Source of the DNA: a virus
Reading direction: 5' to 3' (one strand)
DNA: 24,646 nucleotides
IMG/VR virus record: IMGVR_UViG_3300034012_003365
Span: 1-24,646 of that record
Within the stretch, counting starts at the first letter, position 1. Each line of letters starts with the position of its first letter. The translations under genes and the position numbers were made by a program. The notes under the pieces were generated by a model. It searched no databases, was not told the origin of the DNA, and was given only the letters and a program-made list of their open reading frames with translations. Positions 4,151-7,323 of this stretch are shown here, piece after piece.

Positions 4151-4320
4151 GCGCGGACGACGTCGCTGACGAGCTCACCCGCGCCGGGTGGCGGCCCAGC
4201 ATCCGCTACGCGGGTCGGTGGGATTCGCCGTGTTCGAAGCTGAAGGGCATCCCGCACCTGCGGGCGCTGGAGATCGCGCGGCGTGATGCGCGACGGGACG
4301 CGAGCGGGAGCGGAGCATGA
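4147..4320 (+). CDS. Small basic protein of unknown function
   Basis: A 57-aa protein from ATG 4147 (ATGA overlap with the resolvase stop), ending in a TGA that overlaps the helicase ATG at 4317. It is basic, with the segment GWRPSIRYAGRWDSPCSKLK and an Arg-rich C-terminal helix. It may bind nucleic acid; no family is recognised. Confidence 0.55.
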   Translation: MSADDVADELTRAGWRPSIRYAGRWDSPCSKLKGIPHLRALEIARRDARRDASGSGA

Positions 4321-6119
4321 TGGCAGCGGTGCGCGAGATCACGGTGAAGGCCGACCCCTTCGGCGACCTTCCGACGAAGACGGTGCGGGAGGTGCTTCTG
4401 TCCAAGGGGTGGGCGGGCGTCGTCGAGGACGCCGCGGGGCTCGCGCTCGAGCTCGGCGAGCTCGTCGTGGTGGTGGCGACGGGAAAGCTGGGGGAATCCA
4501 ACCTCAGTCGCCTCGTCGGCGCCCACGGCGAGCTCCCGCCGGCGCCGCGCTACCAGGACTCGCCCAGGGGCGGCGACCCGCGGACGGTGCGGGTGTTCCG
4601 CCGCCCCGCAGGCCTCGACGCGATGGGGCTCCCCAACGCGGTCAACCTGCACGGGTCGGTGCCCGGGGTCTCGGTGCTCGCCGTCGGGCGCGAGGTGATC
4701 CCGCCCAGCTCGCGCGGGGGCGTCACGATGCGCTGGCAGCGCGAGGCCCACGCGGCGACGACGCCCGTGCGCGACCTCCCGGCGTGGCTGCTGGAGATGA
4801 CCCGCGACCCGGCGGCGGCGGCGCGGGCTTGGGGGACGGCGAAGCCCACGGGCGAGGCCGCGCGGGTGCTCGGCGAGTGGGAGCGCGAGCTGACGATGCA
4901 CCGGGGGCGGCCCGCGCCCACCTTCGCCAACGCCTGCACCGTGCTGCGGTCGGCGCCCTGGTGCGCGGGGCGGCTGGTGTTCGACGAGCTCGTGCAGGGG
5001 CCCGCGTGGGAGGGGAAGCCCATCACGGAAGGGACCATCGGGCGGATCCGCGAGCGGTGCGAGCGGGAGATGGGGGTGGCCTTCGGCGGCGAGCTCCTTC
5101 GAAGCGCCATGCAAACCGTCGCCGAAGAGCGGCGCGTTCACCCGGTGCGGGAGTACCTCGACCGGGTGGTGTGGGACGGCGTCCCGCGCCTCGACGCGGT
5201 GGCCGGCACGATCCTCGGCGCCGCGGAGCCCCTCGCGGCGGTGATGGCGCGGCGGTTCTTCGTTGGCGCCGTGGCCCGGGTGATGAAGCCTGGCTGCAAG
5301 CTGGATACGATGCTCGTGCTCGTCGGGCCGCAGGGCGCGAAGAAGTCGACCTTCTACCAGGTGCTCTTCGGGCAGTGGTTCACCGACACCCACGTCGACC
5401 TGAGCAGCAAGGACGCCTTCCTGCAGCTCGCGGGGAGCTGGGGCATCGAGTGGGGGGAGATCGAGCGCGTCACCGGGCGCCGCGGCGCGGACGAGATCAA
5501 GAGCTTCCTGAGCTCGAGGCTCGACCGCTTTCGGCCGCCGTACGGGCGGAGCATCGTCGAGGTGCCCCGGGCCTGCGTGCTCGTCGGGTCGACGAACCAG
5601 GACGTCTTCCTCGACGACGACACCGGGTCGCGGCGCTTCTGGTGCGTGCGGTGCGTCGGGTCGCTTGCGATCGACACCCTCACCGCATGGCGCGACCAGC
5701 TCTGGGCCGAGGCCCGGGCCGCCTTCGAGGCCGGGGAGCCGTGGTGGCTGGGCGCCGAGGACGAGGAGGGCCGCGCCGAGGACGCCGACCGCCACACCAG
5801 CGACGACCCTTGGGCGCCCGCCGTGCTGCGGTGGGTGAAGAAGACCCAGGGCGAGGACTTCACCGCCGCCGAGGTGCTCAAGGGCGCGCTGGACGTCCCG
5901 GTCAAGGACCACGACAAGCACAGCCAGACGCGGGTGGGGCGCATCCTCCGCAAGGCGAAGTGGGAGCGGCGGAAGCACCGGCCGTTCAGGGATGGCACAA
6001 AGGGGGAGCCGGTGTGGTGCTGGTTCAGGCCTGAAGATCCCGACGCGCCGACGTTGACGCAGCGGGCGCCCGGAGCGTTCGGAGATCACCCGGGGGCTGA
6101 CGATGACATGCCGTCGTGA
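4317..6119 (+). CDS. VapE/VirE-type replicative helicase with degenerate primase-polymerase-like N-terminus
   Basis: A 600-aa protein. The ATPase core has a Walker A of the VapE kind, G337-PQGAKKS-T345 (two Lys before Ser), a Walker B-like IEWGEIE (377-383), a sensor Asn at 427 in GSTNQD, and TGSRRFW (436-442) with arginine-finger candidates. The C-terminus (about 535-580) looks like a winged helix (TRVGRILRKAKWERR). Residues about 45-160 follow the end of a prim-pol (AEP) domain: HGELPP, REVIPPS, then TMRW and LPAWLLE. The expected hydrophobic-DxD strand reads LVVVVAT and the expected GGxH reads GGDP, so priming activity is probably lost. It probably unwinds phage DNA at the adjacent downstream repeat region. 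ATPase call firm; primase decay inferred. Confidence 0.85.
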   Translation: MMAAVREITVKADPFGDLPTKTVREVLLSKGWAGVVEDAAGLALELGELVVVVATGKLGESNLSRLVGAHGELPPAPRYQDSPRGGDPRTVRVFRRPAGLDAMGLPNAVNLHGSVPGVSVLAVGREVIPPSSRGGVTMRWQREAHAATTPVRDLPAWLLEMTRDPAAAARAWGTAKPTGEAARVLGEWERELTMHRGRPAPTFANACTVLRSAPWCAGRLVFDELVQGPAWEGKPITEGTIGRIRERCEREMGVAFGGELLRSAMQTVAEERRVHPVREYLDRVVWDGVPRLDAVAGTILGAAEPLAAVMARRFFVGAVARVMKPGCKLDTMLVLVGPQGAKKSTFYQVLFGQWFTDTHVDLSSKDAFLQLAGSWGIEWGEIERVTGRRGADEIKSFLSSRLDRFRPPYGRSIVEVPRACVLVGSTNQDVFLDDDTGSRRFWCVRCVGSLAIDTLTAWRDQLWAEARAAFEAGEPWWLGAEDEEGRAEDADRHTSDDPWAPAVLRWVKKTQGEDFTAAEVLKGALDVPVKDHDKHSQTRVGRILRKAKWERRKHRPFRDGTKGEPVWCWFRPEDPDAPTLTQRAPGAFGDHPGADDDMPS

Positions 6120-6160
6120 AATGCTGGGAAAACAGCGGTTGTTCCCTCAAGGGGGCGACA

Positions 6161-6193
6161 GGGAACGGGAAGGGAACGCGAAGGGAACGCGTG
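6161..6193 (+). repeat. Three tandem 11-bp iterons
   Basis: GGGAAC begins at 6161, 6172 and 6183, giving three consecutive 11-bp units: GGGAACGGGAA, GGGAACGCGAA and GGGAACGCGTG. A period close to one helical turn puts all three on the same face of the DNA, as for initiator-binding iterons. Confidence 0.7.
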
Positions 6194-6203
6194 AAACGCG
6201 GGC

Positions 6204-6302
6204 TTGTACCCTTGTTCCCTGCGTTTCTGCGCGCCCTATAGACCCCTTTTCCCTCTATATACTCTTTACTATTCAAAGGGAACAAAGGGAACAAGGGTAC
6301 AA
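6204..6302. repeat. 17-bp perfect inverted repeat flanking an AT-rich core
   Basis: The left arm TTGTACCCTTGTTCCCT (6204-6220) is the exact reverse complement of the right arm at 6286-6302. Each arm combines one GGGTAC and one GGGAAC hexamer. The 65-bp interior holds CCCTATAGACC and the AT-rich run around CTATATACTCTTTACT. It may be a paired binding site that frames the unwinding region. The loop is too long for a good terminator. Confidence 0.7.
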
Positions 6303-6388
6303 AGGCTACAGGGAAGGGGTTTGCGGTGTTCCCTGTCTGTACCCTGCGACGACCCCGCAAGGGTACGGCTCGCACCAGGAGGCGCCCC

Positions 6389-7072
6389 GTGGCTGAGCGA
6401 CCCCAGGCGAACGCAGGCGACCTCTGCCCCCACTGCCCCTCCGCGGCCCTCGCAGCGGGCGCAGGGCTCCTCCAGTGCGTCTGCGGCACCTGGCACGGCG
6501 CGGACGACGCCCGGTGGCCCCGCGAGACCCCGGAGCCCACCACCGGCGTGCCGCAGCGGCCCGGCCTCGACGCGCCCGTCGGCACGATCGCCCCGCCCTC
6601 GCGGCCCCCTGCGCGCATCTGGCGCGACGCCCCCGAGGTGGCCCGCGTGCGGCGCCTGCTGGCGGAGCTGAGGCCCCACGGCCCCGGCGCCGACGACCCG
6701 CTCACCGCCCCCGCGGAGGGCAAGGGCGCCTCGCTGGCGCCTCGCACGACGGCCCGGGCGCCATGGGACGTGGACGCGCCGCGGGGAGCCTTCCAGCGCG
6801 ACGTGGCGGGCGACGCCGCGGGCGTGGTGGTGCGACGCATCGCGAGCGTCCAGAGCGTCCGCGCGCGGGCCGCGCTGGAGTACCTCCGCCCCCGCGGGAC
6901 GCTGGCTCACGGCTACGCGGCCCTCGCGGTCGCTGTAGCCCACGCAGTCGCCGACGCTGAGCGGCTCGCGTCGTGGCAGGCCGACGAGGCGAACGGGTAC
7001 GAGCGCGCGCGGGTGTGGGGATCGCGGGTGCTCGACGAGGCCTGCGCGGCCTGGGATGCACTGGCGACTTGA
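6389..7072 (+). CDS. Zinc-ribbon protein of unknown function
   Basis: A 227-aa protein. GTG 6389 is chosen because AGGAGG (6377-6382) lies 6 nt upstream; a longer reading back into the repeat region has no such site. The N-terminus has a zinc ribbon, C13-x2-C16 (LCPHCPS) and C30-x-C32 (QCVCGTWH). A Pro-rich linker (about 50-125) leads to an Ala-rich helical C-terminus ending EACAAWDALAT. It is the first gene after the candidate origin and could be a replication accessory or DNA-binding protein. No family is recognised. Confidence 0.7.
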   Translation: MAERPQANAGDLCPHCPSAALAAGAGLLQCVCGTWHGADDARWPRETPEPTTGVPQRPGLDAPVGTIAPPSRPPARIWRDAPEVARVRRLLAELRPHGPGADDPLTAPAEGKGASLAPRTTARAPWDVDAPRGAFQRDVAGDAAGVVVRRIASVQSVRARAALEYLRPRGTLAHGYAALAVAVAHAVADAERLASWQADEANGYERARVWGSRVLDEACAAWDALAT

Positions 7073-7116: not shown

Positions 7117-7323
7117 ATGTCACCGGCAGAGGTACGTCTGGGGGTCGACGCCGTGGCGCGCGCGCTGCGCGTTTCGACGCGCACGGCCCGTCGCCGCCTC
7201 GCCTCCTGGCACCAGCACGGCACCCCCCGCGTCGAGCGCGTCCGCAGCGCCCGCGGAGAGCCCAGCTACACCATCACCCGCGCGGAGCTGGCCCGCGCTA
7301 TCCCGGAGATCGACGATGCCTGA
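7117..7323 (+). CDS. Small HTH DNA-binding protein
   Basis: A 68-aa protein from ATG 7117 (GTG 7114 in the same frame is equally possible). Residues about 9-30 read VDAVARALRVSTRTARRRL, a helix-turn-helix, followed by a basic wing-like stretch (HGTPRVERVRSARGEPSYTI). It resembles MerR/excisionase-like or small winged-helix proteins. Next to the terminase genes it could regulate late transcription or bind a packaging site. The stop lies inside the next gene. Confidence 0.65.
   Translation: MSPAEVRLGVDAVARALRVSTRTARRRLASWHQHGTPRVERVRSARGEPSYTITRAELARAIPEIDDA

Follow-up and report, generated by a model that had tools for sequence, protein, structure and literature searches.

A candidate replication origin of GGGWAC iterons directly 3′ of the vapE helicase gene in a probable tailed-phage contig

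The segment directly 3′ of vapE is, judged from its sequence features, very probably the site where this phage starts to copy its DNA, and is described here as a candidate origin. The window analysed, 24,646 bases long, comprises an entire virus record and is probably only part of a genome. Our preferred reading, held with good confidence, is that of a rep-ori origin at which VapE would act as initiator, reading the iterons 3′ of its own gene and melting the AT-rich core for bidirectional replication. The rep-ori replicon is known from the SaPI/PICI satellites; the present candidate is in a phage. Features of the region are listed by window coordinates.

4317–6119, plus strand: vapE-type self-loading initiator helicase, 600 aa (Pfam, PHROG and PDB matches)
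4404–4787, plus strand: N-terminal Prim-Pol-like segment, residues 30–157 (Pfam PF09250, E 1e-4)
5799–6041, plus strand: C-terminal winged-helix domain, about residues 495–575, putative iteron reader (AlphaFold and family covariation)
6141–6366, no strand assigned: candidate replication origin, 12 GGGWAC iterons around an AT-rich core (word counts and shuffles)
6141, minus strand: first word after the vapE stop
6161–6188, plus strand: left outer iterons, three in tandem at 11 bp (6161, 6172, 6183)
6204–6221, minus strand: left inner iteron pair (6206, 6214; 8 bp apart)
6222–6277, no strand assigned: AT-rich core, putative DNA-unwinding element
6276–6302, plus strand: right inner iterons (6278, 6287, 6295; 9 and 8 bp apart)
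6328–6346, minus strand: right outer iterons (6328, 6339; 11 bp apart)
6361–6366, plus strand: last iteron, ending 11 nt before AGGAGG (6378–6383), the ribosome-binding site of the next gene
6389–7072, plus strand: next gene, 227-aa zinc-ribbon-like protein, outside the conserved module

The initial annotation had described twelve GGGWAC hexamers in 226 bp directly after a VapE helicase, three of them in tandem at exactly 11 bp, one at 6361 within 11 bp of the next ribosome site, and a perfect 17-bp inverted repeat framing the most AT-rich part of the window. All of these were found as described, with the first word 22 bp past the vapE stop (6119). Whole-window dinucleotide shuffles (n = 300) gave at most 4 GGGWAC words per 226 bp vs the 12 seen, and in local shuffles of 6120–6388 (n = 2000; mean 0.68) 12 was never reached. 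The window holds 22 GGGWAC words, so 10 lie outside the array and lone words are common elsewhere. The distinctive properties are the clustering and the flanking MA: the 24.6-kb window has 11 copies of MAGGGWAC (expected 0.86), every one of them inside 6159–6366.

The arms of the inverted repeat, TTGTACCCTTGTTCCCT at 6204–6220 and AGGGAACAAGGGTACAA at 6286–6302, can be extended to 22 nt at 91% identity. The left arm is the left inner pair and the right arm lies among the right inner iterons. With its inner groups making up the inverted repeat, the array approximates a dyad whose centre lies near 6253, and opposed words are 44–45 bp apart on both sides of it (6161 to 6206; 6295 to 6339). The inner pairs are oppositely oriented, and the words flank on both sides the lowest-GC stretch of the window (60 bp starting at 6235, with 38% GC vs a window mean of 74%). 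The 17-bp repeat folds strongly as a single strand (z −4.6), which the paired inverted iterons explain; the repeat may have a stem-loop role like that at the origin of the archaeal plasmid pRN1.

The 600-aa helicase matched Pfam VapE-like_dom (PF05272) with an E value of 4e-73 (245.8 bits vs a curated cut-off of 25) and fell in the PHROG family DNA helicase. Its closest structural counterpart was PDB 7pds_A (PriRep1, 'similar to D. nodosus vapE'), matched in sequence at E 2e-34 and in fold at Z 32.9 across residues 186–576, with the SaPI5 primase-helicase (7ola/7om0) next in the fold comparison at Z about 13. An AlphaFold model built with 27 sequences shows a confident helicase (about residues 190–490) followed by a predicted C-terminal winged helix (500–570; pLDDT about 80–96) that consists of helices 500–509, 517–523 and 534–546 and strands 550–554 and 566–570. 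At the N-terminus, the PF09250 match covers profile positions 38–158 only, the first 37 positions being missing, and the catalytic acidic and histidine motifs were judged by eye to be missing as well. This segment is probably a degenerate primase remnant, possibly a dead domain. No other primase was recognised among the window proteins examined.

These features are close to those of the SaPI/PICI rep-ori module (PMC6092414), a connection that the initial annotation had not drawn. The SaPI replicon was described by Ubeda et al. 2007 (cited through PMC7581432). In Gram-negative PICIs an AT-rich region is always flanked by two sets of iterons, and PICI rep and ori together drive plasmid replication in E. 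coli, as assayed on a conditional (temperature-sensitive) plasmid for the E. coli PICI EcCICFT073 (PMC6092414). Like the satellite systems, the window has a self-loading Rep helicase (its helicase core is homologous to PriRep1) with the candidate ori directly after its gene and an AT-rich region between two iteron sets; the predicted C-terminal winged helix is a putative counterpart of the DNA-binding domain of Rep. It differs in the iteron word GGGWAC, in having no recognised separate primase next to an N-terminal Prim-Pol segment that looks incomplete, and in its setting, which appears to be a tailed-phage contig with structural genes and not a satellite; the downstream open frames resemble a head and tail module by eye (no family search). 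Thus, by its sequence features the segment appears to work like a SaPI replicon, while the element as a whole is not classed as a SaPI or PICI. The Cch2 initiator helicase of SCCmec also has a C-terminal domain whose binding sites, short AAGTG direct repeats, follow closely after its gene, but it belongs to the Primase_Cterm/D5-type helicase branch and has three iterons only (PMC7581432). ORF904 of pRN1 is an SF3 helicase with a C-terminal winged helix, and an essential origin element lies just 3′ of the replication gene, although that origin is a 100-nt stem-loop without iterons (PMC4234260). Iteron plasmids and the SGI1 oriV likewise combine iterons with an AT-rich region; the iterons of SGI1/IncC are 17–19 bp long and accompanied by a putative DnaA box (PMC4980987, PMC7433901), whereas no DnaA box (TTWTNCACA, one mismatch allowed) was found anywhere in the window. 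In lambda-type origins the iterons are inside the initiator gene, unlike the present array.

The region 3′ of vapE was then compared across the family. In the four annotated VapE phages inspected at the outset (Pseudomonas vB_Pae_U5, Corynebacterium StAB, Staphylococcus 3A and Dulem virus 37), a gap at or close after vapE carries the phage's own repeated word around an AT-rich patch. Among four VapE phage records read for their annotation, none has an annotated replication origin. The survey set was drawn from viral contigs, genomes and phages and comprised 320 VapE loci, reduced to 97 non-redundant loci by 3-mer overlap of the C-terminal half of the helicase. Sampling was uneven, the genome scan yielding mostly Pseudomonas prophages, which dereplication largely removed. 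An array was called significant when the most repeated 7-mer in the 600 nt 3′ of vapE beat all 100 dinucleotide shuffles. Such arrays were present at 61/97 loci vs 1–2% of control stretches (last 600 nt of vapE, 2/97; upstream, 2/83; 1.5 kb downstream, 1/89). The remaining 36, about a third, had no significant array in the 600 nt, and a few of them have one further downstream. With 450 nt examined at 82 loci, a previous run had given 55/82 vs 3/82, 3/73 and 1/75 in controls. The AT-richest 60 bp of the locus fell inside the 600 nt at 49/97 loci vs 7.3 expected. The comparison supports the candidate-origin reading, which the initial annotation had put forward.

The words themselves vary greatly between VapE phages, and it is the layout that recurs. 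Refined motifs cover 63 loci, one array with a fixed 15-bp period having been set aside. As motif finding was seeded with the 7-mers that define significance, the motif counts describe the arrays and add no independent proof; the spacing and strand tests played no part in 7-mer selection. Same-strand spacing is 9 bp in 54/63 loci. Two pairs (words 7–11 bp apart) on opposite strands with a gap of 55–130 bp between them occur in 42/63, vs a mean of 7.2 and a maximum of 16 when spacing and strand were shuffled within loci. The inner gap has a median of 93 bp over all loci with paired flanks, vs 64 bp in the window. The strand test concerns relative strand; unlike words cannot be oriented unambiguously, so that absolute polarity cannot be fixed between families. 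ACA was considered as a universal part of the iteron and dropped, being present in only 26/55 consensus words. At one locus (L325), a word is repeated 12 times 3′ of vapE at multiples of 15 bp. All copies share a strand, in contrast to the family's dyad arrays; this array may be coding or an element of another type.

The survey bears on the possibility that the segment is an operator array, at which a repressor or activator binds GGGWAC and controls the downstream genes. Candidate binders encoded in the window include a Cro/CI-like HTH protein (1149–1607), a 68-aa HTH protein at 7117 and the zinc-ribbon protein. The nearby HTH regulators and the closeness of the last word to the next ribosome-binding site favour this explanation. 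However, arrays follow vapE across phages whose downstream genes differ; the zinc-ribbon protein has 0 relatives in the 320 VapE loci and no PHROG family, and the 68-aa protein gave three insignificant matches there (best E 0.17). No sigma-70-like promoter was found in 6050–6450, and neither a dyad layout around an AT core nor a link of the words to the VapE C-terminus would be expected of an operator. We regard an operator array as improbable, though autoregulation may exist alongside origin function; the initial annotation had suggested that the array may also regulate the next gene.

The exact word was searched for beside vapE in other phages, as the initial annotation had proposed. When viral contigs were screened strictly for tandem AAGGGWACA words, five were found. 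Two of them (L108 and L198) have the word and layout of the window directly 3′ of vapE, with matching array positions and vapE genes of one type and equal length. In a third (L124), which starts inside vapE, GGGAAC words flank an A/T-rich stretch in a looser layout; L108/L198 and L124 are phages of quite different composition. The other two (L205, L210) carry tandem words on one strand and have no VapE match. In a looser search, GGGWAC arrays were also met directly after PrimPol/Toprim plus AAA_25 helicase genes at L091:6645–6801, L093:11445–11642 and L095:4062–4244, and after a gene with Prim-Pol only at L156:3208–3449. These four loci were selected by the word and so show recurrence, not frequency. 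Arrays beside another helicase family mean that the word is not exclusive to VapE, and convergence or exchange of a DNA-binding module are suggested as alternatives for them.

For the protein that reads the word, the initial annotation had offered the C-terminal winged helix of the helicase and the adjacent zinc-ribbon protein. The former is supported, by the AlphaFold model and by family covariation; the latter, having no relative in the 320 loci, is unlikely to be the iteron reader. Across 63 loci, iteron similarity tracks similarity of the C-terminal domain given the core (partial Mantel r 0.17, p 0.001), whereas given the C-terminus neither the core (p 0.66) nor the N-terminal helicase part (p 0.74) adds anything. 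The link persists with close pairs removed; it is modest, the motif similarities are noisy, and the permutation test leaves some shared ancestry. The nearest iteron relatives of the window are L108, which has the closest iterons (AAGGGTACA), and L294. The C-terminal domain of L108 is not detectably similar to that of the window, and that of L294 is also dissimilar. The assignment for this phage is therefore drawn from the family trend, together with the published behaviour of SaPI Rep.

On the preferred rep-ori reading, VapE would be the initiator and a self-loading hexamer, whose C-terminal winged helix would bind the GGGWACA iterons that follow the vapE gene. Each half of the dyad would receive one of two hexamers; loaded at the inner iteron pairs and facing opposite ways, these would melt the AT-rich core that separates the pairs, leading to bidirectional replication. 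We infer binding of GGGWAC by this VapE, hexamer loading, melting and origin activity from the array and its relatives. The sequences AAGGGAACA and AAGGGTACA are proposed as binding probes for the C-terminal domain (residues 490–600).

The same data bear on whether the origin is real but its iterons are read by another protein, either a host factor or a second initiator made by the phage, with VapE serving as the loaded helicase only. The AAA_25/Toprim helicases that precede the same word in L091, L093 and L095 fit this explanation, as does the sharing of the word by the window and L108 without detectably similar C-terminal domains. Several points weigh against it. The diversity of words among VapE phages suggests that the phage itself encodes the reader, and likeness between iterons goes with likeness between the VapE C-terminal domains. 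SaPI Rep and its analogue Cch2 each bind the origin through a C-terminal domain of their own (PMC7581432), and the window has no DnaA-box-like word. A reader other than VapE is likewise regarded as improbable.

The initial annotation had also stated that no gene explains the segment. A 97-aa open frame does span it (6103–6396), but it had no Pfam match, and phmmer against the 320 VapE loci gave two matches only, neither credible (best E 0.13). Most GGGWACA triplets in viral contigs resemble collagen-like coding repeats. That the words encode a repetitive peptide in this open frame, as the collagen-like GGGWACA repeats of tail genes do, is extremely unlikely, since they lie on both strands in dyad order at spacings (8, 11) that are not multiples of three, and the base composition differs from that of the neighbouring genes. 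Rfam gave zero matches for the segment, and no terminators were found. As a separate observation, GGGWACA at multiples of 9 bp looks like a common coding repeat in many of L090–L169 (collagen-like QGT/KGT), and such repeats swamp naive iteron searches in viral contigs. A looser search (three AGGGWACA words, 25-bp gaps) returned mostly these repeats, not origins, and was discarded.

GC-skew analysis was another check suggested in the initial annotation. Plus-strand skew goes from about +0.10 to −0.08 inside the array (about 6200; cumulative maximum 6202, change point 6176), the flanking genes being co-directional. The sign is opposite to the usual leading-strand bias and no flip was seen in four other VapE phages; for these reasons skew was left out of the evidence. 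The change is possibly a module boundary.

Taken alone, the candidate origin of this phage is ordinary though clear. A wider proposal is that a single origin architecture is common to VapE-family phages (an AT core of about 60–115 bp between oppositely oriented inner pairs, whose words are about 9 bp apart), in which the word is exchangeable and set by the C-terminal winged helix, and that GGGWACA was independently adopted by unrelated AAA_25 phage helicases. We put this forward tentatively, at somewhat less than even chances. If true, the origins of hundreds of phages could be located, and their specificity predicted, from the helicase gene alone; phage genome records rarely annotate replication origins. 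The survey rule, paired iterons around an AT dip 3′ of vapE, is a testable family-wide prediction. A literature search outside subscription journals found the layout reported for satellites and turned up no corresponding survey of VapE phages. Matched pairs of winged helix and iteron from the survey could yield a recognition code. Three closely related VapE proteins (L019, L029 and L065) differ by few residues in a C-terminal helix (TRADQMRVS, TKGDQMRVG and TRADQMRVG respectively), the words 3′ of vapE being GTTGGGACA, GGTGGGACA and GGTTGGACA, and they form a natural series for such a code.
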